Of a stretch of 64,000 nucleotides of DNA, positions 1-63,733 are shown piece after piece. This DNA comes from Trebouxia sp. TZW2008 (Eukaryota; Chlorophyta; Trebouxiophyceae; Trebouxiales; Trebouxiaceae). Location: assembly GCA_002118135.1 (NCBI GenBank), contig BDIU01000360.1, forward strand, positions 168,136 through 232,135, read 5' to 3'. Both the position numbers and the translations under genes were made by a program. How positions within the stretch are numbered: position 1 is the stretch's first letter; the number at the start of each line of letters is the position of its first letter. The notes under the pieces are model-generated. The model did not search any database. It was not told where the DNA came from and was given only the letters and a program-made list of their open reading frames with translations.

Positions 1-470
1 ACAAATGAAGACTGTGTACTGACCGGCACATGGCGCTGTTGTCCTTCAAAGACTTGGTGTAGTACCTTTGTGCTCAACAGCTCCATGACTTGCCCTTTGT
101 GCTGGGACTGCATCTAACTAGCAAGCCAGGAACATGTGATATACACTCAACGAATGAAGGCTGTGTACTGACCGGCACATGGCGCTGTTGTCCTTCAAAG
201 ACTTGGTGTAGTACCTTTGTACTTAACAGCTCCATGACTTGCCCTTTCTGATGGGACTGCATTCAAGCAACATGCAAGGAACATGTGATATACACTCAAC
301 GAATGAAGGCTGTGTACTGACCGGCACATGGCGCTGTTGCCCTTCAAAGACTTGGTGTAGTCCCTTTGTGCTCAACAGCTCCATGACTTGCCCTTTGTGA
401 TGGGACTGCATCTAACTAGCAAGCCAGGAACATGTGATATACACTCAACGAATGAAGGCTGTGTACTGAC
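1..470 (-). repeat. Tandem ~149-base copies of the 3' edge of the ATPase FARM exon
   Basis: About three further copies of the segment encoding QKGQVMELLSTK plus following intron sequence lie downstream (lower coordinates) of the intact exon end near 480-570. The spacing is about 149 bases. The copies are very similar, which suggests recent duplication. They reach the window edge, so the array may continue. Confidence 0.9.
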
Positions 471-3400: not shown

Positions 3401-6400
3401 CCTGAGCCGTCCTGACACCCTGTCTCTACTGCCACAACAGCAGACCTACATAAGCAGAAGCATTTCAACACAAGTCACCACACATACAGAAACATGTCAG
3501 CACAGACGCTTAGCAACTCCAGAGTACACACCGTTCTCACTGCAATAAACTCAGACGCACACATCTAGGAGCATGTCAAGACAAATGCTGTTCACAGTGA
3601 TCTAAGTGAGCAGATTAGCTTCACATCTTTCTCTATGCAGGCTAACACATGCTGGCTGCCTGTATGTTGATGCTACTGGGTGCTGTTGACACACTCTCCA
3701 GATGCATTGACATGTGACATGCTACTGGTTGTTTGAGTAGCACTTCAGCCGTAGGAGAGTTGCGCACCTGAGCAAGGCCGAGTCAAACTCGAAGCGCCTC
3801 ACTATCCGCAATTTGCAGATCTTGTAAGAGTGTCTGCTGCTGCGCACTGGCAGTGTGACCAGATCTCTTTCCTACACAGGCAATTACACAACGTGGTCAA
3901 TCCAAGTCAAGTCAAGTCAAGTCAAGTCAAGTCAAGCAAAAAGCCCCACAAATCAAAGCTTGTTAGGGTGTGCATTGCACTACAACAACAGCAATGTGTT
4001 AGTTGCACAAGAGAAGATGTGTCAGGGCGTAACATGCTGCTTGTCCAGTGCACCAAACACCAGAAAGAAAATTGTGCATATCCTGAGTCCTAAGCATCCA
4101 CATACCAAGCTAGTGGTGACGTTCTACAGGACCAAACGCTGCCATCTGCACAATCATATGGAGGCATGAGCTGTGCCAGAAAATGTGCCTCCACTGCTTG
4201 GTATACTTGCATCTCTGCTGCATCCCCAACCACCTTGCTCTTGCTCACTCTGGTTAAAGCATTGCAGACAGCTGCAGCCTGTTTGAGCCTGTTTGGCTTT
4301 GTACAGCTGAGACTTGACAGTAAAAAGCAATGCATGACAAGGCAGGATCCTTACAACAAAGTGTGCCTCTACTGCTTGGTATATCTGCATCTCTGCTGCA
4401 TCCCCAACCACCTTGCTCTTGCTCACTCTGGTCAAAGCATTACAGACAGCAGCCGCCTGTTTGAGCCTGTTAGGCCATCTTCGTGCGTGATTTTGCAGCT
4501 GTGCAAAGGCACCGTCCACGAATGGGACCAGCCCATGCAAGTCAGGCTGCAAGCACTGAGCACTTGTTGAGAAACAAGAATCAGGCTACAGCACACACAG
4601 ATGTCGCACGCGAGTAAGGTCCTCAAGTTGATGTACGATCAAGTTGAAGCATTGCAGACGGCCACCGCCTTGCATGGCTTGATAGCTGTGCAAAGGCGCC
4701 ATCCACAAATGGCACCAGCTCATGCAATACAGGCTGCAAGCACACAACGTAGGCTGCAAAAGCAAAGTTTTTTGCGAGACCCTACGCAAAGCGTGCATGC
4801 TCAAAATGTGCATTGCGTCATGCATCTTCATGTACTGTGCAAGCAGAAGCGTTCAAATGCGAAGCAGCAATGGACCAGAAGTCTGCAGACAACAACCAGC
4901 AAAGGGAATGTGCAAGTCAGGGCGACACTTAGGATATGCTGGAGCAGCACAGCAGATACATTCAAGAAGACTAGGGAGATCATGCTACAACAAGACTGGT
5001 CAAGGTAAGGAAGTAAAAGAAGAACAGAGCCACACCATGTTGCCAGTCAGCGTCCCAGTCTTGTCAAAGCACACGACCTCCACAGTGGCAATAGTTTTCA
5101 ACTTCTCAGGAACCAGCACATGAATGTGCTGAGCCCTGAGCTGAACCACAGCATACCCCACTGCAAAGACTACGACTGTAGGCGCAGCTGTTGGGCATGC
5201 TGCGATGAAAACGCCAAGCGCGTGGTTGAGGGTTTGCTGTGGCGATTCTGAGTGCTGGCGGGCGCTGACCATGTATGGGATGAAGAAGAAGAGCTGCAGG
5301 ACCAGGGCAAAGAAGCAGAACTTGAACAGGTCCTGCAGCAGAATGTGACAATCTTTAGAACACGGCAAAGACTACCACTGTAGGCACTGCAATTGTTGGA
5401 AACGCTGCTACAAACACGCCAAGTACGTGCTTGAGGGTTTGTTGTGGCGGCTTTGAGTGACGGTGGGCACTGACCATGTATAGGATGAAGAAGAAGAGCT
5501 GAAAGATCAGGGCAAAGAAGCAGAACTTGAACAGATCCTGCAGCAGAAGGCAAGACTCGTATGTACACTGCCAAAATTGTCACTGTAGATGTAGCAGCTG
5601 AGACAGCTGAAATGAAAATGCCCAGCATGTGGTTCAATGTCTGCAGTGTTGGCAGCAAATTTTGTTGCATGAGCACTGCGATGCACCATCCAAAAGTTGA
5701 CCTTGTCATTGATAAGCATTGATGAAGCTTTGCTGCTTGCATGCAACCTTGAATGTGGCGCTATTGAGCAAACGACAGCAATGTAGTGAGCACAATTTAC
5801 ATGGCATGTGGGCATGCCTATGGAGAAGGCTCAGGAAACTGTTAGCCTTTTGCCAGCTACAATGATTGAAATGTATACAGTATCTGAGCACATTCCTTGA
5901 CATTTCGTGACTTCTGAGCTGTGAGTAGGGCTGTATCTGCAGCATTCCTGGCATCAGGAATGGTACGATCAGACAGTGTCAGGTAGAGAAGAAGCAGCAC
6001 ACCTTCATGCACAGGTCAATGCAAGGTTCAACCTCCGTCCAGAGGCTGTGCAATGCAACACTGTGTCATGAATGTGCGGCAGCAGAAGGTTCTGAATACT
6101 GTCAGCCAAACAATGTTTGAAGCCCAATTAGATGAAGAGGCAATTCATGAAGGGGTCTATGCGGTGGCGAGTCATCTGCATGGGACTCATGACCTGCCTC
6201 AGCAGACTTGCACAAACACTGTGCTGCCAGTCAACACCAGATAGAAAGAGGCTGAAGACATTTGCAACGACCATGGAGTCAGGAAACAACAGACAACGGA
6301 GATAGATCTTAGGCAGCTGGAGGAGAAGCAGCAGACCTTCATGAAGGGGTCTACGCGATGGCGAGCCATCTGCATGGGACTCATGACTTGTCTCAGCAGG

Positions 6401-21035: not shown

Positions 21036-24000
21036 ATGTCGCGCGTTCGCACTGATCTGATTGATCCGCTGCAGAAAAAGTATACCGACATCCAGTCTCT
21101 CCTGACGAAGGTAAACCTTGAAAACAAGGTGGCCATCGTCACAGGAGGCAACACTGGACTAGGTTTCGAGATCATCAAGTCGCTTGTCGCTTGTGGCGCG
21201 CATGTGATCCTTGCAACCAGAAATGACAAGCGAGGCTTCGAGTGCGTGCTATTCTCCACACCGTTCACACAGCAAGACTCATGACATGCAGTCGAACATT
21301 CGGCATCGCGCTTTGCATGCTACCGAAACGTTCCCTCGCAAAAATAGCCGTGGTGAACTGCAGTGCCGCGGACGAGCTCAATCTGGTGGCAGGCAGATCG
21401 CGCAGCAGGGGCAAGGTTGAGTATCTGCACTTGAACCTAGCATCATTCAGGTACGGCAAATCCCTCATCTCAAGTTTGCAAATGCTGTGCTGAAGCTGCA
21501 AGCTGCACTGATGTATGTGTTGCTCTGCAGATCGATCAGCAATTTTGTGACAGCTTTCCACAAGAAAAAGCTGCCCTTGCACATTCTGGCCAACAATGCT
21601 GCTGTTTGGATGGTTGAGGATTCAATGACAGAAGATGGTTTTGAGGTACAGGCGTTCCTTTAAGTGCATGCATTTGCCAATGTATTAGCAGAGTCCTTCA
21701 GCTGCTGATTCTGCACCCAGATTGCATATCAAATCTTTTGATCATAACAATTGCATGCATGCCTAGGTACACATTGCTTCGGGCCTGCCTTCCTTGACCA
21801 CTAGAACGTTTTGCATTTGTATGCATGCATGCCTTCAACATTCAGGCAGCACTGTTCTCTAGTTGCTGGGTCTTGCACTCAGGCTATTCAGTCTGTTGCT
21901 GGCTGGTACTGGCTTAGACAGGCATTGCCTTCTTGAGGCATATTGACCTGACCCACAGGAGCATTTGCGCCTGTTTGCATGCATACATTTGCCACCTTGC
22001 AGTCTGTTGTTTGCAGGCTCAGATAGGCACCCACTTCTTTGGTCATGCCTACCTGACCAGCTTGCTGCTGCCAACACTTAAGCAGAGCACGCCTAGCAGA
22101 GTCGTGTGGACCACCAGCGCTGCAGAAGCCGCAGGCCATGTTGACTGGGCCAATCTGCCGTAAGTACCGCTTCTCAACTTCTGATAGTGTTTCACAATGG
22201 GTTTGAGCTTGCATGACTCCCTGAATAGTTTCAGTCTTGTTTGTGGAGTCAGGGCAGATGTAGGGTCTAGGGCTGTAGAATGTTGTTGCATTCTGCATAA
22301 GCAGCTGCTGAGATCTAATGCAAGGTACTGCTGAGGCCTCAGGAAGGCCTCTGTTCATGTTTTCAGCATGGTTTTTTCGGTGACATGATTTTGCTGAAGA
22401 TAACCTCGTATTGTCAATCAACACCTTTCAACCCGCCTCAACTCATCTTGCTGGTATGCCTGCAACAACACCACCACTTGTGCTCGTCATGAACATGTAT
22501 TGTCATCAGTCACTTGGCAGCCTTGTGCCAAAGTTGTCTGTACTTCACTGCAACATGCTTGATAATTAGCCTTGGATGCGTCCCCGATCGGCAAGGCAGA
22601 GTTGCAATTGACACAATTGATGCTGTGCATCAGACACAGCTGTCCAAGACATTGTTTGCACTGGTCAGCATATTACATGCATAGGACAGTGGGGCATGTT
22701 GGCCTTCCTGATGTGCTGAGTGATACGTGGATTTCTTTTTTCCTTTTAATTTTTTCATGTTTTTTCCCCCCCTTTTTTTCTTTTCTTTTTGGATAAATTT
22801 GAGCTGGGTCATGCAAACCTGACTGTCAAGCATGTGAATGATGACCGTAAATTGTACTTATAGCTTTCACTGAGGAAACATGTATGCAGGGGTGTGGGGT
22901 ACCCCAGTGACTTCATGACCTACTGCACCAACAAGCTGTACGGCCTCATGTTTGCCAGGGAGCTGGCTGTGCGTCTCAAGGTATTGTCTTCACCCACCCA
23001 GCTTTGCAGCACCGCTGAGGTGCAAAGTTTGCTCAATGCTCTGCCATTTGATTCAGCCTTGCTGATGCGGGTCTGCTTTTTGTGAGCTGCTACACAATTT
23101 TGCCATCTTTTGCTGCTTTGCTTTGCCGAGCCTTTGTATAAGGAAAGGCTCGTCTCTGCAAATCAATGTGTGGACAGCATGCAAACCCCACAATTGCTGG
23201 CGTTGATTGAGCGCAAGCACTGCACACCCAGAAGCAGATTGCACCATTTGGGTTGCTTTGACAGCTTGTGCAGTGATCTGATACAGTGACTGTCGTTGAT
23301 ACCACCAGAACGCCCCATATCGTGCATCAGTCTTGTGTTATGCCATGGTCATTTGCTGCTGCATATACAGCTGACATTCAATGCAGTTGCCCTCACGTCA
23401 TGCGTACGCTGCGCAGGACACAGGTGTCAACGTGTGCGCTGGGCAGCCCGAGATGGCATCAACGGACTTGTTCAACCCCAGCAACTCAACCTCATGCAAG
23501 CTATCCCAGATGCGATTTAGCATACAAGTCTTACATGTTGCTTGTGCTGCACAGGACACCGGTGTAAATGTCTACGCTGGGCAGCCCGGCATGGCATCAA
23601 CAGATTTCTTCAACCCCAAGAAGTTCGACATCCTCAAGATTGGTGCTGTATCTCAGTACCTGGCTCAGAAGGTGATTGGGCTGACACCAGCCCAAGGCGC
23701 TGCTGCCTGCATCATGTGCTGCCTCATGGCACCTGATGAGCTTGTTGGTGAGTCCCTTCTTCTGGTGTTGTCTTCACTGGCGCAGTCACTGACCATTTGC
23801 CCCTCAGCTGGGCAAGGCACCGTGCAATTGCTGACAAGAAGTGACAGAGTGTGGTGCTGCCTGCATCATGTGCTGTCTTATGGCACCTGATGAGCTTGTT
23901 GGTAAGTTTCTGCTGCTGCTGTTGCCGCTGCTGCTGCTGCTCACCATTATCACAATCTACTTTTCAGCCTTGCCATACATGTGGCAACAGCAGCCCTAAA

Positions 24001-24678
24001 AACAATACAGGACCAGCTGCCTGAATCATGTGCTACCTCATGGCGTACGATGGGCTTGTTGGTGGGTGACAATCAAGATGTCTAGTGGTGCCAGATGGGT
24101 GTTACTGGAACCCTCATGCGTTGATTGATTTGTCTGATTGATCTGCAAATACAAGCTCAGGAACATCATGTGGGCCAGAGTACTGCGAGAGGCTTGCCAA
24201 ACATCACCAACGTCAACATTCTGCAACATCAGAAGCCAGAAAACAATGCTGCCAATGACACTGAAGCTGATCACATGGCTTTGCTTGCAATTTGCTGCTT
24301 GCATAGTCTCTGACAAACACAATGCTGTGATTTACAGGTGCAAGCTCAGAAACTTCATGCGGTCCAGAGTACTACAAGACGCTCCTGGCTTTTCTGCTTG
24401 CACACTTTCTGACAATCACATTGCTGTCTTTTGCAGATGCAAGCTCAGGAACTTCATATGGCCCAGAGTACTACAAGACCTTCCTGCCAAGGGGTTTGCC
24501 AAACATCACCAACGTCAACATTCTGCAGCATCAGAAGCCAGAAAACGATGCAGCTAATGACCCGGAGGCATGCAGCCGCCTGTATGACCAGACACTGCAC
24601 ATCATCAGGAAGCGTGTTGGAGAAATTGAGGCTGAGCAGAAGGCTCAGAAGGCAGGAGTCAAGAAGTCTGAGGAATGA
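21036..24678 (+). CDS. Short-chain dehydrogenase/reductase (SDR), 358 residues
   Basis: An NAD(P)H-dependent oxidoreductase of the classical SDR fold, resembling the retinol-dehydrogenase/WWOX/protochlorophyllide-reductase-like group; the substrate is unknown. Exons: 21036-21241, 21364-21450, 21531-21645, 22017-22159, 22890-22980, 23555-23747, 24437-24678, total 1077 bases with consistent phase. The cofactor motif TGGNTGLG is at residues 36-43. NNAA at 119-122 stands for the usual NNAG. The catalytic Ser is likely S170 (WTTSAAE), and the YxxxK motif is Y195-K199 (YCTNK). The C-terminal tail from about 320 is Lys/Glu-rich (IEAEQKAQKAGVKKSEE) and predicted helical. All catalytic residues are present, so the gene should be active. 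The introns carry copies of exons 6 and 7. Confidence 0.92.
23410..23510 (+). repeat. Upstream copy of SDR exon 6, 5' edge
   Basis: GCGCAG acceptor followed by DTGVNVCAGQPEMASTDLF repeats the start of exon 6 (23555), about 140 bases upstream. It stays open for ~30 codons, so it could be used by mistake as an acceptor. Confidence 0.85.
23845..24070 (+). repeat. Two downstream copies of SDR exon 6, 3' edge
   Basis: Copies near 23850-23905 and 24015-24065 repeat the CIMCCLMAPDELVG end with its donor. The second is decayed (CLN for CIM, AYDG for APDE). Confidence 0.85.
24130..24400 (+). repeat. Two upstream copies of SDR exon 7, 5' edge
   Basis: Copies near 24145-24275 and 24338-24395 repeat the SSGTSYGPEYYKT start. 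The first also carries LPNITNVNILQHQKPEN but has lost part of the middle. Confidence 0.85.
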
Positions 24679-24799: not shown

Positions 24800-24900
24800 G
24801 GCATATGCGCTAGACCTTGCACATCGTCAGAAAGCGTGTTTGCAAAATTGAGGCGAAGCAGAAGGCCCAGCAGGCTGGGGTCAAGAAAGCTGAGGAGTGA
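24800..24900 (+). repeat. Downstream copy of the SDR C-terminal end with stop
   Basis: It repeats the last ~90 bases of exon 7, reading KIEAKQKAQQAGVKKAEE and ending in TGA, about 220 bases after the true stop. It lies in the 3' UTR or just beyond. Confidence 0.85.
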
Positions 24901-26331
24901 TTGGCTGCCTACTCAGTAGTACTTATGTGATTTAGCTTTGTCGCCTTGGGTGATGGGTTTGGACTGGTTTCTGCTTTCAAATGTGTTGAACATCTGCATT
25001 TACAATTCAAAGCACCACTTGTCAGGCACACGCCCCACAAGTTGCAAGCGTGATTGAGCCGTGAAGCTTCAATCATGAATGCCAGCTTGGATGTGGCCAA
25101 ATTGCGTACGGGCACACAGTGTCACGCCTGCTGCTGACAGTAGGCTGCTGTAAAAAGTCAACAAGCAAGAATGTCATGTCTTCAAGCCTGTTGCACGCAA
25201 AACGCAACCTGATGCACATCCGAGAGCTTTCAGGCTGTTTATTGATATTCACTTTGGCCTGGCCCTTGGCAGGCAGTGTACTACCTTAGATTAGCGCACA
25301 CACCACAAAGGTCACACAGCACAGTGAGTCCAAATGTTCACATCAGTACAGATCTACAGCAGAGTGTGCAAGGTCAGTAGTGGTAACAGCCGTGTTTTCA
25401 ATGTTACCAGGGACTGATAGCATTAGCGATAGGAATAGCAACTATCATGCAGGCAGCCGCTGCACATTGGGGCTTACAACGTTTGGTGCCTGTTTACACC
25501 AAGAAGATTATGTTGACTGCCTTGCATCCTGAGGTGAGCTCAAGACCAGCTATGCGCCTATCAACATGGCATGCCAAGTGACCACAGAAACAAATTGCAG
25601 TGATCAAATGTGCAACCATAAAGCTGCTCGCCTGACTGCTGGACAGCATTTTGGCCCGACTTGGATATTGCAACAAACAGCAACCACATCTTGTCAGTGT
25701 CATCACACAGTGAGCACTATAAAAGCCATGATGTGATCCCTCTGGTATTGGTGGAACAATATACACAGCTGCCACAAGAAGAGCGCAACATGTGCTGCAA
25801 ACGCAAGAGCCATGACAGAAGATTAATTGTTACAACATTCCAACCAAGTCTGCTTGAATAAGCACAAGCTGTGTTGGGAAACATACACACTCAAAAACAG
25901 AATGGCGGCAAACACAGGCTGGCTAGATGCCAGCAGCTACCTCTACAACTACAAGCAGGGAAATCTCAATGGAAGCTTCCAACTATGTCTACAACACATC
26001 TTCACCTACATAGCAAACTAGCTGCAAGCACAACACATCACCATACCAAGCAAATCAATGAAATTGTATCCAATAGGATGCCAGCTAATGCTTATGCTAT
26101 GTTCTGCAATGCAGTATGGTGTTCTGCACTGCAAGGATGCAGGCTTCTGTCTTTTTACATACAACTTCAATGCTTCTGGCTTGCTTTGGATCTTCAGCCG
26201 AACACAGTACACTAAGGTATGGCCATATACTAAGCTTATATGGTTTGTCTCTTCAGACAAAGGCTGCTGTTATGACGCCTGAAAGCGTACACTGTTCTCT
26301 CTGAGCTTGTCAGTCGAGGTTTTTTGGCGAT
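24901..26331. other. Intergenic region between convergent SDR and ELIP-like genes
   Basis: It should hold both 3' UTRs. I found no recognisable gene, repeat or RNA in it. Confidence 0.5.
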
Positions 26332-28171
26332 TTACAAGCCAAGGCCTGGAGGACCCTGCTGCTGAAGCCTAGAATAGATCAGGGTTGCTGCTCTCCTCAA
26401 CTCCTGGTTGTACTCGACGTATGCAAGGATGGCATAGCCGACCATAGCAGCTCTGCCGTTGACTAGCTCGGCGGTTCTGTCAAACGGGCCAATGCCTGCA
26501 AAGCCATCATCAGCAGTCAGTCAGGAATACATACCAACAAGCAAACGCTGTTACTCTACGTATGCAAAAATGGCAGAGCCGACCATAGCAGCTCTGCTGT
26601 TGACTAGCTCTGCGGTCCTGTTGAATGGGCCAATGCCTGCAATTCCTGCAAAGCCATTGTCAGCAGTCAGTCATACTGACAGGAAGAATGTACAGACAAG
26701 CGAACTGTGTCACTCTATGAATGCAAGAATGGCGCAGCCGGCCATAGCAGCTCTGCCGTTGACTAGCTCTGCGGTTCTGTTGAATGGAACAATGCCTGCA
26801 TTTGCCAGAACACTGATGCATTATGCACAGACAAGCAAATAAGTTGTCAGCACTTGGTCATATTGATGCGTCATGTGCAGACAAGCAAAGCAATTGATCT
26901 ATGCACAGATCATGACTGGTACAAACCTCAAGATTCACACCAGCAAGTTGCGTGCATCTGTACATCAAGCGCTTGACCTGCTACACATCAGTCAAAAAAA
27001 CTATCTCAAGCAAAATCAGGCATGCTCACCTTTGTTTGGGGAGCCAAATGCTCTGTTCAACTGAGCCGCAACGACAACCAGCAGGTATGCTGTCAGATAA
27101 GCATATGGAGCGTAGTACAGTTGCTGCCACAGGGAGGCGCCTGTGATGGCTTCGTTGGCAACAGCAGCGGTAAAACCGATCATGGCAAGACGGCCGTTCA
27201 GCAGCTCAGCAGGTCTCCACAGCAACACCTGCAACAGTGCCAACACTTTGAGTTGACAGTTGCTGCAATGCATATATGTACAGAAAAAGTTGACCAGCAG
27301 AGACGTTACAGATGTCGCAATGTGTATGCACATGAAATCTGCTGAACTTCCTGACTCAGAGTGGTCAAGCATAAGTGCTTTTTGTGTGCTGTCCACACGT
27401 GATTGCGGGTTGGCTGAGAGCATGTATGTAGTGCTTGATAAGCTGACCTACAATCAATTGCAGTCAGACTTCAAGGCAAACCACATACATACAGACTGAA
27501 CAAGATACATGAAGCATGCGCAGGGTCTGCTCAACCATACCTGGTAGTTGTCCATGGCACGCTTGACATCGCCAAAGCTCCTTAGCTGCACTCGTGCCTC
27601 AGGGTGCTGAGTCAAGAACATGTACAGTTTGCCCAGCTGCTGCTGCTGGTCGGGAGGAAGTTGACCGATGGCCTTGTCAAGCTCGGTGCCGGCTCTGAGC
27701 TTGGGGTCCTGTGGGCCGCCATTGGACACATTTCTGTCTTCAGGCTCGTACAAGCCGACGCCACCCTTGTCCTGCGATAGCAACAGGAAACGTGTGAACA
27801 CGACATAAACGATCGCTAGCTGTCAACGCGCTCATAGATTACTTAAGCTTTGGCTGCAGTTTCAATAGTTGTCGCGTCTTCAAGCAACGAACGATAGAAC
27901 TCCACGTAAAAAGTACAAAACGACACGTCGTAGCGCTGAGAAGGCTAAACAGGTCGTCAAGAACACAGTGCGCAACTTAAGCACGTGTACAAGTGATCAC
28001 CTCGTTTACCTGCTTCTGCTGGTCTTGCTGTGCGGCGATGCGCTTGACAACGGTTGGGCGCAACGATTGGCCAACGCGGGAGATTGATGGCAATCTGGTT
28101 GGCATTGTCGCACGGCTGCCGATGCCGCTGATCCTGGTTGGTGCGAAAGTGGGGGTCATGGCAGTTTGCAT
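26332..28171 (-). CDS. ELIP-like chlorophyll a/b-binding-family protein, 251 residues
   Basis: Early light-inducible proteins sit in thylakoid membranes and bind pigment under light stress. Exons on the minus strand: 28171-28010 (Ser/Thr/Arg-rich likely chloroplast transit peptide), 27771-27541 (hydrophilic, SFGDVKRAMDNYQ), 27228-27030, 26495-26332; total 756 bases, phase consistent. Helix 1 has the LHC signature ELLNGRLAMIGF (residues 139-150). A middle hydrophobic helix (YLTAYLLVVVAA) follows. Helix 3 has ELVNGRAAMVGY (207-218). This three-helix layout with E-NGR-AM-G in helices 1 and 3 is that of ELIPs. I place the start at the ATG at 28171; the frame extends 9 codons further to a TTG only. 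Two extra copies of the helix-3 exon lie in the last intron. Confidence 0.88.
26551..26636 (-). repeat. Extra terminal-exon copy (b) of the ELIP-like gene
   Basis: Acceptor GCAG and helix 3 (ELVNSRAAMVGSAIFAYVE) are followed at once by TAA. It is phase-compatible with exon 3 and would give a protein ending right after helix 3. It has NSR where the others have NGR. Confidence 0.8.
26710..26795 (-). repeat. Extra terminal-exon copy (a) of the ELIP-like gene
   Basis: Acceptor TTTGCAG and helix 3 (ELVNGRAAMAGCAILAFIE) are followed by TGA. It is phase-compatible with exon 3 and keeps the NGR signature. It is the acceptor nearest to exon 3, so it could be an alternative last exon. Confidence 0.8.
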
Positions 28172-29102: not shown

Positions 29103-32100
29103 ATGGCGAGCGATGACGAGTTTGAGTATGGCGACCAGGTAACAAAACAGCTTTGATAGATCACGTCTGCACAGCGATATAGACATGTGCATCTTGACAT
29201 GATCATCGGTATCTTCCCCTCACCAAGCGCGTTCTGCATGTCTGTGACACTTTCCGTATTTACAACACCAACGTCTGGCTCATAGGTACCCAGAAGCAGT
29301 GATGATGAGGGCCCTGTTGAGCACCCAGACCAGCTGTCAAGCCAAGCCAGGACTGGCAGACCCGATTCTCGGCTAGCTGGTCCCATGTCTGGGCAAGCTC
29401 AGGCCAGCACAATTGGGCTTTTTGCTTATCAACCACCCCCAGAGGGTCAGCAGCCAATTCTGCTTCGTTGAAGTTGCTGCCTTTGTCTGCTGACAGTGCA
29501 TGCTGCTCCCCTGCTGCGTGCGCTGCGCCGCGTTCCCTATGCACTGCTTGCACCATGTATGCTGTCTGTGAACTGCGAGACTGGCAAAAGCTCAGCCACC
29601 CGCTGAGAGCTCATGGCCATGATCTGCAAAGTGGCGCAAAATGCAAACAAGCTCAGAATATATCCTTGCGCCGTCCACAATGCTGACATGCTACAATCAA
29701 GGTATAATGCGATTGTCATCTGATCTTGTATAGGTAACATTGACCTTTCGGCAAAAGCTGCTGCATGCCTTGTCTACAAGCTGGTCCCACAGCCTAGACA
29801 TGGTGTATGGAGTAGGCGGCTACGATCCAGTTGAGTATGAGGGCTAGCCATTCAGTGAACAAAAGCAACACTTGTTGCAGTACATGACACAATACAGGCC
29901 AGAAGCTCTGCAACCAGAAATACCATCAGAGTTGACCTTACAGTCCAAGTTGTGGTGCAGGCGGTTACAATCCAGATGAGTATGAGGGCTTGCCAGTCAG
30001 CGAAGAAGTGCAAGACTTGTTTCAATACATCACACAGTACAAGCCGGAAGTGCTGCAGTTGGAAACGCCACTGAAGCCCTTCATCCCAAATTATGTCCCA
30101 GCCATTGGTGAGATTGATGAGTTCATCAAGGTCTGTCCCGACATAATGTTAAGCATGTACCATGCAAGCTACACAAAGGGTACTGTTGTCATTTTCATTT
30201 GCCTGCTTCCCTTGCTGGCTGCGGTCTCCTTGAAGTGAGCCCAATTTGCTTAGGGCAACCAGCCGTGAGACAGATGCATAGCTTTGTATGCACTTAGCAG
30301 CTCCGTGAAACCTCACCAGTCAGCCTGAAAATGACACTGAAAATGGTGACGATGCTGATGACAATTCTTGCAGGTGTCTAGGCCTGATGGGAAGCCAGAC
30401 TTGCTATGACTGAAGGTGCTTGATGAGCCTGCAGCAGTGGAGTCAGACCTCCTGCGTCTTATGATCATGATCATGCAACAATGAAAGCATGACTCAGTTG
30501 CAAAGCTTGGTCCTTGCAGGTGTCAAGGCCTGATGGGAAGCTGGACCTGCTAGGACTGAAGGTGCTTGATGAACCTGCGGCAGTGCAGTCAGATCCATCA
30601 GTGCTAACAATGCAGCTCAAGCAAGCCTCCAAGCAGGCAAGCACTTTCAAGCTTCGGACTTGCTTGTTTGACAGCTCTTCACAAACGTTTTGGCTGCAGC
30701 ATCAGCAAATGATTGCATGCACATGCTTTCTTGAGCGTCATGTTGAAAGCCTTGACTGCAATGTCAGCAAATACTTGGGTTGGCTTGCTGTTCTGAGCGC
30801 ATTTGTTGAATCCCTTGACTGCGATGTGAATGAATGATCTGACATGCATGTGTGCATGAGGGCAACAGCTTACGTTACAAATGTTGCTGCAGTCTGGTCT
30901 CAGCGCATTTCTTGCATGTCTACAGAGATTAGATCAGCCAATGTGATCTCTACATCTATAGACAGCCTCTTGTCCAAGGTATAAAGCTGCCTACGACCGG
31001 ATTTGAGCCTCCTTGAATGCTGTGGCAACGGGAAGGGGTGAATTGCTTGGGCATCAAACCTCAAAGCGAATCAGCATTCCAGCAGCAGTTCGCAAAGTGG
31101 CAACACCTGCCATTCTGCAGCAACACATGATTGATCATGTACGATTCTGAAGTGATGCAAGCAGGGCACAGCACAGATGCTGCAGCCATGGTCAGTAAGG
31201 TTCAAGATCCTGCCAGAAATGGCAAGCAAATCACTGACTGGATCAAGAGTTATGCTGTTCTACCAAAGCCAAGGAGCATGTGCTGAATGATGTGCTGTTT
31301 TGAAGTGAGGTGCAATTGTGATGTGATGCAGGCTTGGAACAGCACAGCAGCTGCAGCCACAATCAGTAAGGTTCAAGGCCCTGCCAGAAATGGCAAGCAA
31401 ATCACTGACTGGATCAAGAGTTTTGCTGTTCTACCCAGGCCAAGGAGCATGTGCTGAGTGATGTGCTGTTTTGAAGTGAGGTGCAATTGTGATGTGACGC
31501 AGGCTGGGAACAGCGCAGCAGCCGCAGCCACAGTCAGTAAGGTTCAAGACCCTGCCAAGAATGGCAAGCGGATCACGGATTGGATCAAGAGCATTGGTGA
31601 TCTGCAGAAGGTACAAAGGAGTCAACAAGCCATCCGGCCCTGTCATGCAATGCTTGCTATGCGTTTTACCATGCTTGCATGCTGCTTAGGAGCTTTGCAA
31701 ACAGCTTGATGTGATATTAAGTTTGACAAGGAGACAAGGCAAGGGAAATGCAAAGCAGCAAGATGCATAAGATCATGCATGTGTTGAAAATCAAACTTGA
31801 CAAGCTGGGTTGATGGCTATTTGTAAGGTAAGCATTCTGTAGTGGGTTCTCCTTGTGAGTGCTTTGGTTACAAGAAATTTGCCCTTACATCAATTTGTTC
31901 CTGCTCAGAGGGACCACTGCAGTCAGAATGCAGTGATTGCATCCCAACTTGCATTGTCCTTACATGAAGAATATTGTTACATTGAGCGTCCTTACAAATG
32001 GAAGTCACTGTACAGCAGTTGCCTGCCTGATGAGCCAAGACCATCATGTGGATTGCTGATTGCCTTGTGCCTGACATACACACATTGAAACGGGACCCGC

Positions 32101-41815: not shown

Positions 41816-41929
41816 TTGTCTGTCACCTTGGATGCACAAGCAGAGTTGAGGGTCTATGTGCTTAGATACATAGCCTTGCACTAGGTGCTTTGGACTCAGT
41901 GCATTGCTTTTGCAAGCATCAAACTGGAG

Positions 41930-48510: not shown

Positions 48511-51500
48511 ATGGCCAACGACGGCTGCCAGACACCGGCGTGGACCGGCCAGGCGTTTGCATACCTTCCTCATCACCCGAGAGGTGCCGCACAGGCCTCA
48601 CAAAGCTATGCTCAGCTGAGATCGCAAGGTGATACGGGTTTCGCGGTGCGACGCGGCCACGCAGCGATGCACAGTTGAAACGTGAACTCTTCACACACGC
48701 TTGTCGTGTTGTGCAAAACACACTTATGGTGTACAGGTCCTCAGCCTTCGCACGCACTCAGCACCTCAGGAGCCACAGCAGCTACGCGGCAGGTACGTCA
48801 GCATCGTACGCTTTCGCGCCTGTCCTATTAGCACTGTCGTTGGCACTGCAGCACACACGCCATGATGCAGAGAAAGTAACTGTGTGCCGCTCTGTACGGT
48901 GCCAACCAGTTGAGCTAGTTATGCAATATACAGGATAGAACTGGCGTGTGGAATGGCCCAGCACCTGTTGGAGCCACAGCCAGGACTCAGGTGTGTTTGT
49001 GCCCGCATTCGAACGCGAAATTTGCATGCACTTCTGTCTGCGCTGCCTGCACGTCGTCTTGCAGGGCTCAAGTGCAACTTGAGTCACTGCTGCCCAAAGT
49101 CAAACATAAATAATAGGGTCCCCCAGACAGGACACAAATGAAGGCAGTGCAAGTCACAGCAGCGCTGATGCCGGGGGCCTCTTCTTTTTGAACTTTCTCG
49201 GCTCATTGAGGCCCTCTGTACAAACACTGTGTTGCAAAGATTCTGCTCTAGACTATCAGTGACGAGTGGACAATAAGATTGTAGTTGGTGTTATGTGCAC
49301 ACAAGGATGCAACACGACTTCTTATGTTGCTTGCAGAATGGCGCTGTGACCGCATTGACCGCGCCAGCCCAGAATGACTCCGTTCTTTTGCCTAGCGGAT
49401 CTAGGATGCCGTTGGTGGGATTTGGCACATACAAAGTGGACAAAGCAGACAGTGTTAGGTGAGCTGCTTGCTGCTTGCTGCTCACTGCTCGCTGATGACC
49501 GCTCACTGCTTGCTTGTTAGGCAGTCGGGCGGTAGCTGAAGGCTACAAACACATAGATTGTCCCTCCTTCTATGTCAATGAACAAACAATCAGAGAAGGC
49601 AGACACAATCGCAGAAGGCCTGCCCGACTTGTTTGCTTTTCTGGCAGGCGGGCAATAGCAGCAGGGTACAGGCACATAGACTGTGCCTCCTTCTATGACA
49701 ATGAACAAACAATAGGAGAAGGCTTGTCAGACTTCATCAGCAGTGGCCACCGGAGCGAGCTTTTCATTGTGAGCAAGATCTGGAATGATGCCCACAGACC
49801 CAAATTGGCCAGGTATGCATTGTTCAGCAGTTTCTGAGGACTGAGAGCCCCTTCATATTGCTCAAAGTGCATGTCAGCCCTGCCGCAAACTCCAGCTCTA
49901 CATCTGGGTGCATCAGCAGCGCTCACAGGAGCAAGCTTTTCATTGTGAGCAAGATCTGGAATAATACCAACAAACCCAAACTTGCCAAGTAAACAGCATG
50001 TTTGCCTTGAATTGTAATCATTCTTGATACAAAGTAGTAGGGTTTTAAAGCAAAGAGAGGATTCATAACAACAGCAAACCTAGTCATCAAGGTCTGGAAT
50101 GATGCCCACAGACCTAAACTTGCCAGGTCAGGAGTGCCACAGCATGTTTGTCTTGAAACTGTTCCTGATAGAATAACTGGTAGTAAATGACAGCACCAAT
50201 CACATCTCAAGAATGAATCTTGAGAGCAAACCATCATCAGCGTCGTGTTAATGATCAGGTTTTGTGGGACGACTGTGCCTGCTGTGATATCAACTTCTCG
50301 GGAGTAAAAATTTTGCTATCATTCATGCAGAAGGTGCAATACAATTGAGAACACACTAGACAAGTCTTTCATTGTTTGCATGCAGCATCTCTCATGTGCT
50401 GCATGCATGCAGGGCCGAACACGCAAACTGCACTTACTACCATCATGACATTTGTTTGAACCATTGTTGTTGTGATGTTTTGTCCCAACATGCATGCAGG
50501 GAGTCATGTGAAAAGAGCATCAAGGACCTTGGGTGCGATTATTTGGACCTGCTGCTGATGCATTGGCCTGATGCCTGGCAGCCTGGCAGTGGCATGCCTG
50601 GGACTATTGATGACACTGTCACCATTCAGCAAACATGGTAAGTCATGCATGTTCAGTTCTGATCCTTTTGTTTGTCTTGTCTTTCGTGTCATTCATGCAT
50701 TGGCCTAAAGCATGGGTGCCTGACAGCAGCATGCCTGGGACTATGGATGCTGATACTGTCATCATTCAGCAAACATGGTGTGCCTTTGCTGCGTAAGCAC
50801 TCAGCAATCATTGTAAGTTGCAAACGGCATACAGTCAGCAGATATGTGGAACAATGCGATGGTCATAGAATGCAATGGTCACACATTGGCGCTGCCCGGC
50901 AACGGTCTGACTGACACTACTGGTAATCCCATGCAACGCACATTGAAAGCCATGCATTCAGCAAACACCGTAAATTTTGTAACATCATTCATTCAGCACA
51001 TGTTTTGGGTGATAGAGGGCATATTTGCAAGACTGACGCAAGGACGTCATGGACAAGCTGGTTGATGCTGGATCAATGAAGCACCTTGAAGTCAGCAATT
51101 TCAGCGTGAAGCAAGTTGATGAGTTGTTGACTCATGTGTTGCTGTGTGACACAGCTGTGATGCACCTGCTTGACTGATACAGGGAAGCCATGGAGAAGCT
51201 GGTTGATGACGGGCTAGTCAGGCATCTGGGAGTCAGCAACTTCAGTGTGAAGCAAGTTGAGGAGTTGCTGACGCATGCGCGCATCAAGCCAGTTGCCAAC
51301 CAAGTGGAGCTGCATCCTTTCATGGCACAGCGCAAGCTTGTGGGTGTCTGTGCCAGAAAGGTAGTGATTGTGACAATTGCACAAACAAGCTTTGAAAAGA
51401 GGATTTGCAGCTTTTGCAAACTGCATTTATACATTCATGGCACAGCGCAAGCTTGCAGGTGATGATAATGACAACAGTGAAAACAACAGTCACAAGGCTT

Positions 51501-54500
51501 TAACCTTTTATGGCACAGCACAAGCTTGCGGGATTCTGTGCCAGAAATGTATCAACTTTAACAGCTGTCATCTCAAGAAGCGGAGGCTGACATCCATTTG
51601 GTCAACATTGTTGTTGCAAATGCATTCTGCCATGACCTACTGAATGTCAACCCTCCATAATGTTAGATGGATGGCATGCAAGCAAGTGTCTGCATTGTAT
51701 AGTATCTGTGCAACATACAAAAGCTGGACTCTGTATGACAACATGATACCACTAAGAGTAATTCAGCTACAGCTGTCATGGCAAATGCCAGTCCTGTTTG
51801 GTGTCTGTACAACGCACTATTGCTGGAGTCTGAATGACGACATGATACCACTTTCAGTGACTCAGCTTGAGCGCGCAAAGGCTCTTGCGAGGCAAGATCC
51901 ACCTTCCATGACTCTGACAGACTTCCAGCACTCATCCACTGCTACAGTGAACTCTTGTTGTAACGACTGCTCTGGTCACCAAGAAATCTGTCCTTATATC
52001 AAGTTGTCCTTACTCATACGGACCACTGCAGTCAGAATGCAGTGATTGGTCACCAAACGCACTGTCCTTACATTGAGATTGCCCTTACATTAAGTGTCCT
52101 TACAACAAGAGTTTACTGTAGTAGCAACCCTCATGACACTGTTGGCACCGACCTGCTTACTTCTATAAGCAGCAGCCTTCATCCTCACGTCAGCAGCAGG
52201 CAGCATTACTGCCCTGCCAGAAGTGTTGTGTGATGTTGTTGCATCAATCATGCAAAGTCTGTTGTTGCTTGCACTGCTTAACGCTGGCATGCCAAATTGC
52301 GTGTATACCATGCCTGGCTGACAGCATTGATCTGTAGTCCAGAATGTCATCTTTAGACTTCGATAGTGACAGTGACAGAATAACACCCTGACATCCTTAC
52401 TTTGCACAGATTGCAGCATGGCACTGAAAAGTGCTATTTTATGGGTTGCATGGCGTCAAATGCATAGGGTATGCCCCTCTAGGCCATGCAAAGTCAGACT
52501 TCTTTGATTACAGCCCATTGCTTGAGATTACAGAGTGGGTTTGACACAATTGTAGGATAGTGACGAATGTGTATGTGTGGATCATAGGGGGTCAATTGCA
52601 TAGGGTCTGCCCCTCTGGGCCATGCAAAGTCAAGCATCTTTGAGCAAAGCAGATTGCAGATAGGTATTGACAAGATCGTAGCAGTTGGCAGGTGTTTGTG
52701 TATGAATCGCAGGGCGTCACCTTCACAGGGTATGCTCCTCTGGGTCATGCAAAGCCTGACTTCTTTGAGAACAGCCATTGCTTGAGATTGCAGAGTGACA
52801 CTGACAGAATTGTAGGTTAGTGATCAATGTGTATGTGTGGGTCGTAGGGGGTCAACTGCATAGGGTCTGTCCCTCTGGGCCATGCAAAGTCAAGCATCTT
52901 TGAGCAAACCCTGTTGCATAAAATTGCAGATAGGTGTTGACAAGATGGTAGCAGTATCATTGACAGGTGTTTGTGTATGGATTGCAGGGTGTTAACTGCA
53001 TAGGGTATGCCCCTCTGGGTCATGCAAAACCAGATTTCTTTGAGAACAGCCCATTGCATGAGGTAGCCAAGGAGCTAGGACGAACACCCGCACAGGTCAG
53101 ACACCTCAATGCTAAAGTACCCTCGTACGTTCACTATGCATCATGACCTGTCAGCATGACAGCACAGTAGTCATGCAGATGCCTCTGACCAAATGTGCCA
53201 GACGCACATCCGCACAGGTCAGACACCTTTATGCTGCTCGTCATCCATCAGATGTGCATTGCAAAACCTGAATCAATATACTGCACGCCTGCACAGGTCA
53301 GACATCTCAATGCTAATCATTAGTTACAGTCATTTGCCAGCTTGCAAAGGCTACAGTGCTGCAAATAAGGCCATTCAAGGCGCCAAACGCACACATGTAC
53401 AAGTGAGACTCACATTTTGAGTCATTCAGCCGCATCTGGATTTTTCAGCCTAGAGCACCACAAGTAATGCAAGCTTTTCAGGTGTTGGGGGACCAACACC
53501 ACGCCCGGCAGTCATACTTCTGGTGACATTTGTCTCTGGGCAAGTCGTGTGTGCGTGTGTGCGTGCATACCAAGGCTGCTTGTGACCACGCAAGCACCCT
53601 TGCTTCTGTGTGTATCTTTTGATGCTCTATGATGAGTTCTGCAACAGTTTGTTCACCTTGGAGAACAGCAGTCTGGGCTGATGCCCAGGTGGCGACACAC
53701 TGTTCATTTACTGAGAGCTTCTAAGTAACACATGATAGCACATGGCCTAGTGAATCTCTCGCCCAGTGGCATCAAGTGGTCACGTGTCAATTTGTAACAA
53801 TCTATGCACTTGAGGCAGTTATATGCAAAACATGCAACGGCTGCCATGAGGATCACACCAATCATTAAACAGAGAAAAGTTACTGCGCAAATGGTCATTG
53901 TGCCATTTGTCTTGTGGTTGTAGCAATGCTATGCGCAGCCTGGCTTCTCAGATTTCGACTGCGGCAGACGTAAGACGTATTCGAATTTGAATCAAAACGG
54001 TTTTGATTGCGCAGGTCTGTTTGAAGTGGAATGTGCAGCGTGGAGTGGCAGTGATTCCCAGGAGCCAGAATCCCAACAACATCAAGTCCAACATTGAGGG
54101 GCTGTTTGACTGGGTCTTGCCTAGAGAAGCCAAGGTCAGCACTATTCTTCTTTTGTGCTTTATTCTTTTTTCTTCTTCTTTGGTCTTCTGTACTTCTTTG
54201 ATTTGGCTTTTGGCTTGTCTCCTTTTTTGGCCTTACTGCTCATGGCAACATCAAGTCCAACATCCAGGGGTTGTGTTACTGGGTCTTGCCTCAGGAAGCC
54301 AAGGTGAGCCCCCTTCTTTTTCAACCTCTTCTTCCTCAATCTTCTCCTCTTCTTCAACCTCTTCTTCATCGAGCCATAGGTTACACATTCTTGTGTTTGG
54401 TTCCCACTCATTTTACTCAGCAACATCAAATGCAATATTGAGGGCCTCTATGACTTTGTTCTATCTAGAAAAGCCAAGGTCAGTCTTCTTCATCCTCCTT

Positions 54501-56102: not shown

Positions 56103-56280
56103 CACAGCCCCTCCGTCGGTAGACACAGGCACAAAAGTGGTAGACACAGGCACACAAGTGGTAGACACAGGCACGTGACTAGTGGACATGTTCTATTGCA
56201 CTGTGACTGCTGACTGCATGGCTGGGGTGATCTTGAAGTTACCTGTGCCTCACAACCTGGCAAGGTTGTGGCACATCGCG
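56103..56280 (+). repeat. Short tandem repeat and a decayed copy of AKR exon 9
   Basis: About three 20-base units of GTAGACACAGGCAC type at 56115-56175 are followed (56188-56265) by a copy of the GTGACTGCTGACTG...GGGGTGAT part of the last exon, without an open frame. Confidence 0.8.
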
Positions 56281-56687
56281 TCCACTCAAGTAGTAGACAC
56301 AGATATATGACTTGAGGCGACAAGCACTTGGTCAATGGACACAGTCTGATGACCAGTAGAAGCTGGCACAATTGACAGACATAGGCCCCAGCATCTATCA
56401 CCTTTACTGATACTTGATGGCACAAAACACCTGGACAAGTGTAATGTACAGCTTTGACATATACAAGCTTGTGGGCGCATCTGGAGGCAGCTCACCAAGC
56501 TTGTGAGATAGGCATAATATCAGAAATGAACCTTTGATCTCAAAGCATGACTTCTTGTCAGACAAAATGGTTGATGAAGCAAGGTTCAAGCACATACAAA
56601 ACCTTGATATGCAAGTTTTGGCTGATTCAGGATGGCAGTCCAGAAGGCAAGGAGATGTATGAGTCTCAGGTGCAAATCTGCGGGCTT

Positions 56688-57004
56688 TGTTACAGGGCAA
56701 ACTTAATTGGCTCTCTGACACGTAGCTAGCACACCCTTTTCATGCGCCCCAATTCAGTGTTTTCGGATGTTAGGCCGTTTGACCTCAGATTGGAGGTCGG
56801 CGGTTCGATTCAGCGCTTCCGCACGATTGGTCCTGTTCCCAGCCCAGGATATGATACTTGACGTTGATTGCTTGTTGATTTGGGTTCTCCGCTTCCGTTA
56901 ATTGATTCAAGTCCGGGGGTCTTGATTTAACGGGGGGGGAATGTTACAGGGCAAACTTAATTGGCTCTCTGACACGTAGCTAGCACACCCTTTTCATGCG
57001 CCCC
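56688..57004. mobile_element. 317-base element with identical 63-base direct terminal repeats (TRIM- or SINE-like)
   Basis: The segments 56688-56750 and 56942-57004 are identical (63 bases, starting TGTTACAGGGC, ending GCGCCCC). The 191-base interior contains GGCGGTTCGATTCAG, close to a pol III B box/tRNA T-arm. It ends in a purine tract (GGGGGGGGAA) directly before the second repeat, like the polypurine tract before a 3' LTR. It has no protein frame. It could be a tiny non-autonomous LTR element, a composite tRNA-derived SINE, or a simple local duplication. Confidence 0.55.
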
Positions 57005-61100: not shown

Positions 61101-63733
61101 AGACAGCAGTCCCAAGCCGCTTCTGATTCTGACTGAATAAGGTTTGCATAGCCATGCCTACTTGAAAAGCCCAGGTGCAAGTAGATGACCACACAAATGA
61201 CCAGGCTCACTGCATCCACCTGCATGCACCAAGCATTGGCCAGTGAGTGCTTGCATGAGTGGTGTATAGCATGCTAAGCTTGACGCACTGCACTTGTGCT
61301 CAGTTTGCTGCTTTTAGACAGCAGTCCCAAGCCGCTTCTGATTCTGACTGAATAAGGTTTGCATAGCCATGCCTACTTGAAAAGCCCAGGTGCAAGTAGA
61401 TGATCACACAAATGACCAGGCTCACTGCATCCACCTGCATGCATCAAGCATTGGCCAGTGAGTCCTTGCATGAGTGGAGTATAGCATGCTAAGCTTGACG
61501 CACTTCAGTTGTGCTCAATTTGCTGCTTCCAGACAGTACCCTCTGGCTGCTTCTGATACTGACTGACTGAGGTGTGCATAGCCATGCCCACTGGAAAAAG
61601 CCGAGCGCAAGTCGACAATCACACAGAAAAAAACAGGCTCACTGCGTCCACCTGTATGCACCAAGCAATGGTCTGTTCTCTGATGAATGCCTGCAGCGGT
61701 GTTCATTATCCTGAACTTGATATGCTGCAGTGCCATTCAGAACGCTGCTTCAAGACTGTGTGATTTGGATTTGTTCTTGGAAACTTGACTGTCAGCATGG
61801 TGCCTGGTGCAGCAGACTAGATGTGTCTGGTGACCAACATGGGGTTGCATAGCATGCTAAAAAGACGCGTTTCAGTGCTGCTCAAGTTGCTGCTTTTAGC
61901 AGTCTGTACTTGCTTCTGAGAACAGGTACTGCCAGCATGACAGCTGATAAAGTAGAGTGGTTTTTTTTCTGCTGGGCTCGAGTGCCTGATTTACGTCTCC
62001 CCGGCAGAGATGTATGCAAGGGTCTAGTTGTATACCAGCTTCAGGCATGCCCATCTGCTTTGCAAGAGGACAATCACACGGAATCTGCGTCTTGAGGCCC
62101 TTTGATGGAAGGCCTAGGAGGGAAGACAGGGTTGGGGCATGTATGGGTGAGTTCTGCTCAAAGCATCAGATGTGAGCAACTCTGTGTTGCTGTTGCTGTA
62201 TACGCATATTGTGTATATGTACATTGTTGCTATTGTATATGTTGCTGTATATATACATATCGTTGCTGTATATGCATATGCACCTTGCATATGATGAGCG
62301 CGCTGCATGACAGAGCAGCCTACCTTGGTCATTTGCTTAGCATGGTATTTGCTGTAATCTTGCTCCAGATCTCTATCGTAGAAGTACAGCAACCATGGGT
62401 GCTGCCGCTGCTTCTCCAGTCTTCTTTGTGCTTCGCCTTCTGCCTCAGTAGCCTGACTGGGCCCACGTGACCAAGATGACTTGAAGGATGTGTCATCACG
62501 CACAGCAATATTGCGCCCAGAACCTCCATCGGCAGCCCTGCTGGATCTGGCGCCAGGTTCAGAATCCCTGCCTGGCAGAACCTCCTGCTGAGGTTCTGCC
62601 AAATCCTGAGCTGAAAGCGATGACGCTGAATGCTCCTGGTCATATGACCATTTCCTGGAATCAGGCGGCAGGCCTTGGCCAGAGTACACTGTGGCCAGCG
62701 GCCTTGGCGGTGGTGGCGGAATGCCTGAGTCAAAGGCGGCAGGGTTGGCCACAGCTGTGGCCGCCACTGCATCCAACAGAGACCCACAGGAGCTCTGTGC
62801 ATGACCTGTTCCCTCCTCTCTGGAAGGGTCTGCCATAGACCCTAGCCGCGACGGCTGGGCACTAGACTGGCGAGAAACCATACTGTCAGAGTAATGCCTG
62901 TCTAGACTTGGCAGGCTGTTCCCACTAGGCATTGATCCAATAGGAGAGGGGTTCCTACTAAGCATCTGGTCCAGTGGGAGAGAGCCTGACTGCTCCTGCC
63001 TTCTACCTGGCCTTTCGCCACCCAGGACTGAAATGGTGGGAATGGCAATGCCACTGGTGGTGGCAAAGGGCGTTGCTGCATTCCTCAGCATGGCTGCAGC
63101 AGCGGTGGCGTCAGCACCATCAGCTGTGGAAGGGCTCTCGTCAGCTGTGGCGCCATCAGCCTCAGCGGTGGCAGCAGGGCCGTTGAGCACTGGCCCAGAA
63201 GGGGCCAGGCTGTGATCATCTGCGCCCACAGCTGTGGCCACAGCAGCAGCGGTGTTGGCTGCATGCAATGCTTGGTCAATCAGGGGCTGCCGCTGATCAT
63301 GCATGATGGGTATCAACTGCTGAGCCAGCCCTTTGAGCTTGATCAGCGTCCTGCAACAAAGTACAAGTTAATTTGAGCATCACAACATTTATAGATACAC
63401 CACAAAACATGGCGCCAGCAAGATTGCCAAGGCTATGTGCAAGGCAAAGCCCTACGCCACATACTACAACAGCGTATGACTGATTCTCCACTCAGAGATG
63501 CTCAACAGTCAAGCGAGCTCAAATGCACTGAGCTGAAACCAAATCCAAAGGGCCATGCAGCACCATAAAATGTATGCACTCAATTTGGCAGGTCTTGCCA
63601 AAGGACCACTTGCTGCACACCATACAAAAATGCAACAAACTGACAACGTGGCACAGGGCTCCAGTGAGTCAAGTGTGTATGTTGTCTGTACCTTTCCAGG
63701 TCATGCGCTGTCCACGCAGCCCAAGGATCAGCA
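58123..63733 (-). CDS. Multi-pass membrane protein with long disordered N-terminal region, partial
   Basis: Exons on the minus strand: 63733-63692 (ADPWAAWTAHDLER), 63350-62324, 60990-60836, 59636-59456, 59379-59227, 58383-58123 with stop; phase agrees at each junction. The big exon starts with a helical stretch (TLIKLKGLAQQLIPIMHDQR), then about 250 Ala/Ser/Pro/Gln-rich residues, and ends HPWLLYFYDRDLEQDYSKY. About six hydrophobic segments follow: VSLIICVIIYLH, FGLTLTVMLSVVYTVLY, YTFFLTPAVLKAAP, LLMTAVGVM, FAMSAAVLPNTICQAVF, FLIGVVLSSIVVAL. It ends in a basic, Ser/Thr-rich tail (NERRLRGMYLRS). I recognise no named family. The LEQDY-plus-six-helix layout recalls membrane modules attached to algal signalling enzymes, but no enzyme domain follows. 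The start lies beyond the right edge. Intermediate exons between 59227 and 58383 cannot be excluded. Confidence 0.7.
58975..59145 (-). repeat. Two downstream copies of the WPLLMTAVGVM exon 3' edge
   Basis: Copies near 58978-59015 and 59100-59130 repeat the end of the exon at 59379-59227 (CACCATGACACCAACAGCAG on the plus strand), including the donor in the nearer copy. Confidence 0.88.
60285..60830 (-). repeat. Minisatellite of 8-10 copies of an exon 3' edge with its splice donor
   Basis: Downstream of the exon at 60990-60836, units of roughly 45-65 bases repeat the end of that exon, reading variants of VYTVLYMQDR followed by GTGTGT or GTGCGT. On the plus strand each unit contains CACCTGTCTTGxxTGTA. 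Every unit carries a potential donor. Confidence 0.9.
61020..61665 (-). repeat. Three upstream copies of an exon 5' edge, period about 215
   Basis: Copies near 61140-61235, 61360-61445 and 61570-61660 repeat the acceptor and the VDAVSLxxCVxIYLHLGFS start of the exon at 60990, plus a near-identical intron block (TATAGCATGCTAAGCTTGACG). The first two are almost identical to each other; the third is diverged. Confidence 0.92.
62185..62290. repeat. TA-rich GTTGCTGTATAT-type repeat
   Basis: Four to five irregular units of GTTGCTGTATA/GTATATG in the intron after the large exon of the membrane-protein gene. Confidence 0.8.

Follow-up and report, generated by a model that had tools for sequence, protein, structure and literature searches.

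Duplication of gene segments together with their splicing signals has been described in other organisms. In the potato RdRp gene, a tandem duplication across an intron-exon boundary copied the splicing signals along with it and created a new intron (PMC4974935); the same article, in the parts of its text available, presents the Rogers AGGT model and the internal gene duplication of Gao and Lynch (2009), in which exonic AGGT segments are duplicated. In Drosophila, seven introns of conserved genes were gained by tandem duplication, with proto-splice sites giving the extra donors and acceptors (PMC2891723, available parts). Here, we analysed a 64,000-nucleotide stretch of the lichen-type green alga Trebouxia sp. 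TZW2008 (the window: positions 168136-232135 of contig C338, in a 68.5-Mb genome of 527 contigs), in which parts of exons, splice site included, recur many times over in the flanking introns. These partial copies follow a strict direction: those upstream of an exon hold its 5′ edge, and those downstream come from its 3′ part.

Published Trebouxia genomes measure 63-74 Mb (PMC11523091), and one further genome has 69.1 Mb and 49.7% GC (PMC12712428). In the portions of these articles available, the words "intron" and "duplication" are absent from the former and the word "tandem" from the latter. Within the window, we modelled IFT46, an aldo-keto reductase gene (AKR) and SDR, whose top species-named protein matches are all from Trebouxia (80, 76 and 74% identity, respectively). 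Exons were set by spliced alignment to the proteins P0002 and P0124 (both Trebouxia sp. C0005) and P0242 (80% identical), and the direction rule played no part in setting them. The models comprise 25 exons (7 in IFT46, 10 in AKR and 8 in SDR) and cover 333/333, 390/390 and 354/355 residues of the guide proteins, the last SDR exon having been extended by hand by two codons up to the stop.

Comparison of the window with itself gave 86 direct pairs no more than 700 bp apart and one inverted pair; one dinucleotide shuffle of the window gave no local direct pair. After removal of two low-complexity pairs, the three modelled genes contain 31 partial exon copies close to their source, 16 upstream and 15 downstream, with at least one copy at nine acceptors and nine donor or stop ends. 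All 16 upstream copies carry the 5′ exon edge, and the 15 downstream copies all derive from the exon 3′ part (one ends 14 nt before the donor); depending on the donor-edge tolerance, the latter are classed as 14 3′-edge copies and one internal copy (3′ half) or as 11 and four. No copy has both splice sites (0/31), as whole-exon tandem duplication would require, and one copy of IFT46 exon 5 covers all 108 exon bases and ends at the donor. The original prediction, made from the letters of the window, had claimed that exon-edge copies with their splice sites exist and obey a strict direction rule, and both claims are borne out here (31/31 pairs on the rule's side). Three of its examples were recovered with the very numbers given: three upstream and two downstream copies for IFT46 exon 6, four and two for its AKR exon 7 (exon 8 in our numbering), and one and two for its SDR exon 6 (our exon 7).

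The same direction is seen beyond the window. Searches for AKR and protein-kinase domains on other contigs supplied 59 exon anchors, an anchor being the part matched by the family model and not the whole exon. Eleven of them bear 32 copies, all on the rule's side (32/32) and none covering the whole anchor (0/32); 23 of these pairs extend to the anchor end and nine lie within the matching half. The anchor at L006 runs across stops and probably introns, and four loci were not used as anchors (L001, L003 and L004, which lie inside the window, and L002, which is covered by L014). Equal numbers of 3′ edges upstream and 5′ edges downstream, which the original prediction had named as evidence against itself, are far from what is found, with wrong-side pairs at 0/31 and 0/32. 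In a set of 49 loci (163 kb; the 59 loci minus 10 that overlap another), local pairs are direct in 183 cases and inverted in 2, so that here, as in the window, copies lie close to their source in direct orientation, as expected of tandem duplication.

To understand why the rule holds, we ran a simulation in which tandem duplications, each about 140 bp, fell at random positions, with neutral decay, deletions and no preference for edges, and in which an event was retained only if one intact coding sequence survived. Across four settings, 93-98% of simulated pairs obeyed the rule; of the 651 exon-derived pairs from the first setting, 613 obeyed it, and the 38 exceptions included one whole-exon pair. 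The observed strictness (63/63 pairs, which are non-independent) is close to this share. Since random duplication with a coding filter suffices, the direction rule is a geometric consequence of the two and no separate phenomenon. The earlier proposal that frequent small tandem duplications are combined with selection for one whole exon is therefore supported, and the rule itself stands as a description and falls as a phenomenon of its own.

We therefore consider random small tandem duplication, with selection for one intact exon and neutral decay of the leftovers, the best explanation of these copies, with a probability of about 0.7. Head-to-tail duplications, typically of some 100-175 bp, would arise at many positions in the genome and build up in noncoding DNA. 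An event wholly within an exon would disrupt the protein and be lost, and one wholly within an intron would leave no exon copy. An event crossing a splice site could be tolerated, as one complete exon and one complete splice site would persist: at an acceptor, the downstream copy would be continuous with the remainder of the exon, leaving the spare 5′ edge upstream, and at a donor, the spare 3′ edge would end up downstream. The leftover part-exons would then decay neutrally. That each pair arose by head-to-tail duplication rather than by other copying is inferred, as is a slowing of the duplication wave.

The age distribution of the copies may reflect such a slowing. Among 50 window arrays the median best identity is 82, and only one exceeds 93%, a TRIM-like element (see below); none of the other 49 does. 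Best identity in the 49 loci reaches 91.9 at the 95th percentile and 95.1 at most. When the three genes are simulated under constant activity, about 31% of arrays pass 93% identity. This near-absence of young copies suggests either a past wave of duplication or the collapse of near-identical repeats by the assembler. Paralogues offer no date: AKR paralogues gave good spliced models at L013, L027 and L028 and a partial one at L006 (8 loci tried), and the matches covered exons only, so the copies cannot be dated by this comparison.

Several observations weigh against random duplication with a coding filter. Two concern the rule itself. The simulation barred duplication of whole exons, the absence of which is thus an assumption there and not a prediction. 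Further, the CG-1 domain exon of another window gene (38172-38573) lies among tandem copies, the Pfam match sits on the middle copy, and the pairs span the entire anchor, unlike any of the 32 pairs at the anchors outside the window; if the middle copy is the real exon, it could violate the direction rule. The original prediction of two upstream copies and one downstream for its CG-1 exon 4 is right as to tandem copies and ambiguous as to which of them is the real exon.

Other observations favour a mechanism that draws duplication to exon edges, through splicing, exon-positioned nucleosomes or transcription, each duplicated stretch reaching to just beyond the splice site. Exon-touching arrays of the three modelled genes outnumber intron-only arrays 17 to 3, a ratio that the random model puts at 1.15-1.32 to 1 and that none of 240 replicates reached. 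At the level of pairs, 31 stand against 13, with a model range of 0.15-0.36 for the ratio and no replicate reaching the observed value (0/240 and 0/200, or 0/440), a gap that is overstated in that the pair-level simulations allow introns beyond their real length. Intron-side homology is missing in 13 of 31 pairs (anchored score ≤6), and the period falls in a narrow range (median 140 bp, middle half 120-173, in 46 window arrays). Against attraction to edges, 11 arrays in the 49 loci touch the anchor exon, with 13.1 +/- 2.6 for random intervals of equal length; this test is blunt, as the flanks hold other exons, but it is independent of the choice of window, and the window had been selected as striking. 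The excess at exons in the window genes probably reflects that choice in part, and a real preference may lie beneath it. Random placement relative to exon edges, the other outcome that the original prediction had set against itself, is close to what the 49 loci show, with no excess, and differs from the three window genes, which have one.

The sharp ends of homology can be examined separately. Among pairs with at least 78% identity, 12 of 24 lack intron-side homology, a share that is 14-29% in simulations with constant activity and 34-58% when a quiet period precedes the present. Since a quiet period reproduces the sharp ends, no special mechanism is needed for them, and the edge-specific or RNA-linked mechanism that they had seemed to indicate is no longer our leading explanation. 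Overall, attraction of duplication to exon edges appears improbable to us.

Less probable again is that old copies have been kept exon-like by gene conversion, or are partly functional as alternative exon ends, so that survival is limited to sequence with a constrained exon behind it. For 16 of the 31 pairs, intron-side scores stay under 10, the 95th percentile for unrelated introns, the exon parts of pairs lacking intron-side homology are mostly 78-90% identical, and homology often stops at points where constraint is expected to cease (the acceptor tract, the donor consensus or the stop codon), all of which this alternative would explain. Third-position differences, at 161 of 330 (49%), are slightly over the rough neutral expectation of 44%, a further point in its favour and against neutral decay. 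Nevertheless, differences between copy and source (87/82/161 at codon positions 1/2/3, for 28 of the 31 pairs, with four gaps over 2073 aligned bases), together with a stop or frameshift within the homologous portion of 8 of 28 copies, suggest that the copies are under little coding constraint. Moreover, copies of IFT46 exons 4 and 6 look ancestral where the exon has changed (by eye, compared with P0002-P0004), and decay with a quiet period is enough to account for the pattern. The copy of the SDR stop-codon end (pair 24590-24901) has no second-position differences (7/0/9), so that this copy may serve as an alternative last exon.

Templated filler, placed close to a break in the course of its repair, would fit the spacing of some copies: they abut (gap <15 bp) in 25 of 46 window arrays and lie 27-184 bp apart in the other 21 (the 184-bp case being the TRIM-like element). 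Of 13 spacers compared in the modelled genes, 9 resemble neither flank, a feature that a fresh abutting duplication would lack and that weighs against random tandem duplication. Upstream of exons, templated filler should bring in 3′ edges and exon interiors no less often than 5′ edges, and with wrong-side pairs absent from both sets we regard it as very unlikely. An assembly artefact is hardly credible, as a copy-source difference of 9-37% is not expected from assembly and the same pattern recurs across many contigs.

Random duplication under a coding filter can be carried further in one respect. As a tentative and rather doubtful extension, a past wave of tandem duplications of about 140 bp, now subsided, would have left introns full of part-exons and decoy splice sites, and the exon edges of some genes may hold several-fold more relics than random placement allows.

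The contribution to introns is substantial. Aligned copies make up 39% of intronic bases in IFT46, 37% in AKR and 27% in SDR, and the earlier idea of an engine for intron growth holds to that extent. Its second half, an engine for decoy splice sites, fares less well. The splice dinucleotide is kept in 23 of 28 copies (AG in 11/16 upstream, GT in 12/12 downstream; copies with a splice site, the 33-nt piece excluded, and with one further upstream copy that is unaligned at the AG here and reads AG in another alignment), and neutral decay at such divergence would, by our estimate, retain roughly three quarters. The putative decoy sites therefore appear neither clearly purged nor seen in use, and any role in splicing would be hypothetical.

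Most window arrays consist of two to a few copies, and the displayed pair of each is 63-92% identical, the TRIM-like element excepted; satellites or minisatellites, with many near-identical short units, are not what these arrays resemble. Local direct copies take up 22.7% of the window, at a stricter cut-off than that for the 49 loci, where they take up 13% of all bases and 15 loci have none. A random sample of four 10-kb stretches (L034-L037), used for this density check only, showed about 2% local direct repeats in L036 and L037 and 20% in L035, so repeat density varies strongly along the genome, and the window is richer in copies than most sampled stretches. The fourth, L034 (C17:20001-30000), is a block of dense short repeats, both direct and inverted, unlike the other three.

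The copies of the window are collected in the table below. Nine further anchors were available in four other window genes; four of them have copies, three in keeping with the rule and the CG-1 exon ambiguous, and five have none, including both aquaporin-family anchors. The claim that every split gene of the window is affected is therefore not borne out. Searches of solved structures with the ATPase-like and aquaporin-like genes found too little for gene models, and near the ELIP-like open frame a Pfam Chloroa_b-bind match lies at 27034-27219.

Table. Partial exon copies in the window, in window coordinates; percentages are identities.
Exon part and copy	Position	Strand	Details
SDR exon 7 (23555-23747) 5′ edge, upstream copy	23392..23480	+	source 23530-23618, offset -138, 80%
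SDR exon 7 3′ edge and donor, downstream copy	23855..24057	+	offset 154, 67%
SDR exon 7 3′ edge, second downstream copy	24009..24067	+	offset 314, 81%
SDR exon 8 (24437-24678) 5′ edge, upstream copy	24144..24267	+	offset -288, 79%
SDR exon 8 5′ edge, upstream copy	24291..24387	+	offset -99, 84%
SDR exon 8 3′ end with stop codon, downstream copy	24812..24901	+	offset 222, 82%; codon-position differences 7/0/9
IFT46 exon 3 (29961-30130) 5′ edge, upstream copy	29808..29925	+	offset -145, 78%
IFT46 exon 4 (30520-30636) 5′ edge, upstream copy	30367..30447	+	offset -146, 90%
IFT46 exon 5 (31503-31610) 5′ edge, two upstream copies, period 171	31139..31432	+	offsets -171 (90%), -342 (78%; full exon bases, ends at donor)
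IFT46 exon 6 (32661-32783) 5′ edge, three upstream copies	32111..32589	+	offsets -529, -302, -151
IFT46 exon 6 3′ edge and donor, two downstream copies	32831..33094	+	offsets 102 (87%), 235 (83%)
AKR exon 5 (49648-49812) 5′ edge, upstream copy	49507..49600	+	offset -123, 82%
AKR exon 5 3′ edge, two downstream copies	49911..50128	+	offsets 176 (85%), 314 (87%)
AKR exon 6 (50500-50637) 3′ edge, downstream copy	50695..50779	+	offset 137, 84%
AKR exon 7 (51183-51360) 5′ edge, upstream copy	51026..51136	+	offset -141, 78%
AKR exon 7 3′ part, two downstream copies	51429..51551	+	offsets 115 (88%, 33 nt, ends 14 nt before donor), 188 (84%)
AKR exon 8 (52988-53095) 5′ edge, four upstream copies	52408..52919	+	offsets -135, -260, -396, -535
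AKR exon 8 3′ edge and donor, two downstream copies	53201..53316	+	offsets 122 (89%), 201 (91%)
AKR exon 9 (54015-54134) 3′ edge and donor, two downstream copies	54246..54494	+	offsets 169, 344; 75%
AKR exon 10 (55991-56098) end with stop codon, downstream copy	56185..56360	+	offset 176, 66%
P-type ATPase-like exon with DKTGT motif (anchor 5009-5308), 5′ side, two upstream copies	5361..5648	-	offsets 202 (80%), 407 (69%); gene name from weak matches
P-type ATPase-like exon (anchor 516-659), 3′ side, three downstream copies	1..412	-	offsets -149, -298, -447; 86-92%
Open frame 26335-26520, by eye a chlorophyll-binding (ELIP-like) exon, 5′ side, two upstream copies	26552..26803	-	offsets 141 (80%), 300 (85%)

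Dispersed repeats are also present in the window and have to be kept apart from the exon copies. The pair at 56688-57011, considered as an exon copy, was set aside as an element of 325 bp bounded by direct repeats of 70 bp, which from its build we take to be TRIM-like; elsewhere in the genome it has at least 15 other long matches (79-97%), and one of its terminal repeats by itself has more than 20 (93-100%). A dispersed repeat of about 178 bp lies in introns of AKR (51943-52120) and IFT46 (about 31841-32016). Each query scored at about 40 places among more than 1300 first-look candidates, mostly at 84-91% and 78-85%, and the widely dispersed match of the AKR gene is this repeat, separate from its exon copies. 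An 85-bp dispersed repeat occurs at 7470-7554 and 41925-42009 in opposite orientation (92%), and again at L023, L066 and L018/L028 (one place).

The events behind intron growth are usually erased, and here short duplications are still legible beside their source. The supply of new intron sequence and of decoy splice sites thereby becomes directly countable. For annotation, the copies call for caution: a gene finder or a family search might settle on a copy instead of the true exon edge, and the CG-1 exon may be such a case.

Introner elements, which add intron sequence as near-identical copies dispersed in unrelated introns, resemble the algal copies in that introns grow by added sequence; for the one source we examined, a 192-nt sequence from AKR exon 7, matches were confined to its own locus and one paralogue (C61). 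Short tandem duplications in plants reportedly arise from staggered breaks or adjacent nicks, as Vaughn and Bennetzen (2014) and Schiml (2016) are said to have found, and the algal copies share their short size and direct head-to-tail structure. Among the matches listed in our literature search, which missed most subscription journals, and judging by titles and the beginnings of abstracts, no paper describes partial exon copies with this direction rule across a genome. The type of mutation is already known, and abundant partial-exon relics in existing introns were not found described there. The original prediction that the pattern has no named description is accordingly too broad for single duplications across or at splice sites, which the potato and Drosophila reports contain (PMC4974935; PMC2891723), and stands, within these sources, for the pattern of many relics. 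As far as the available parts of these articles allow comparison, the duplicated segment crosses one intron-exon boundary and includes the splicing signals, like that of the potato RdRp gene, where a new intron resulted; unlike it, the algal copies are relics within existing introns, several per gene (PMC4974935). As in internal gene duplication (Rogers model; Gao and Lynch 2009), they are small head-to-tail duplications within genes, but where the Rogers AGGT model duplicates exonic segments, the algal units span existing splice sites and leave partial exons behind. Finally, as in Drosophila, tandem duplication supplies additional donor and acceptor sites; there it yielded seven gained introns (PMC2891723), whereas in Trebouxia its products are many relics inside introns that already existed.

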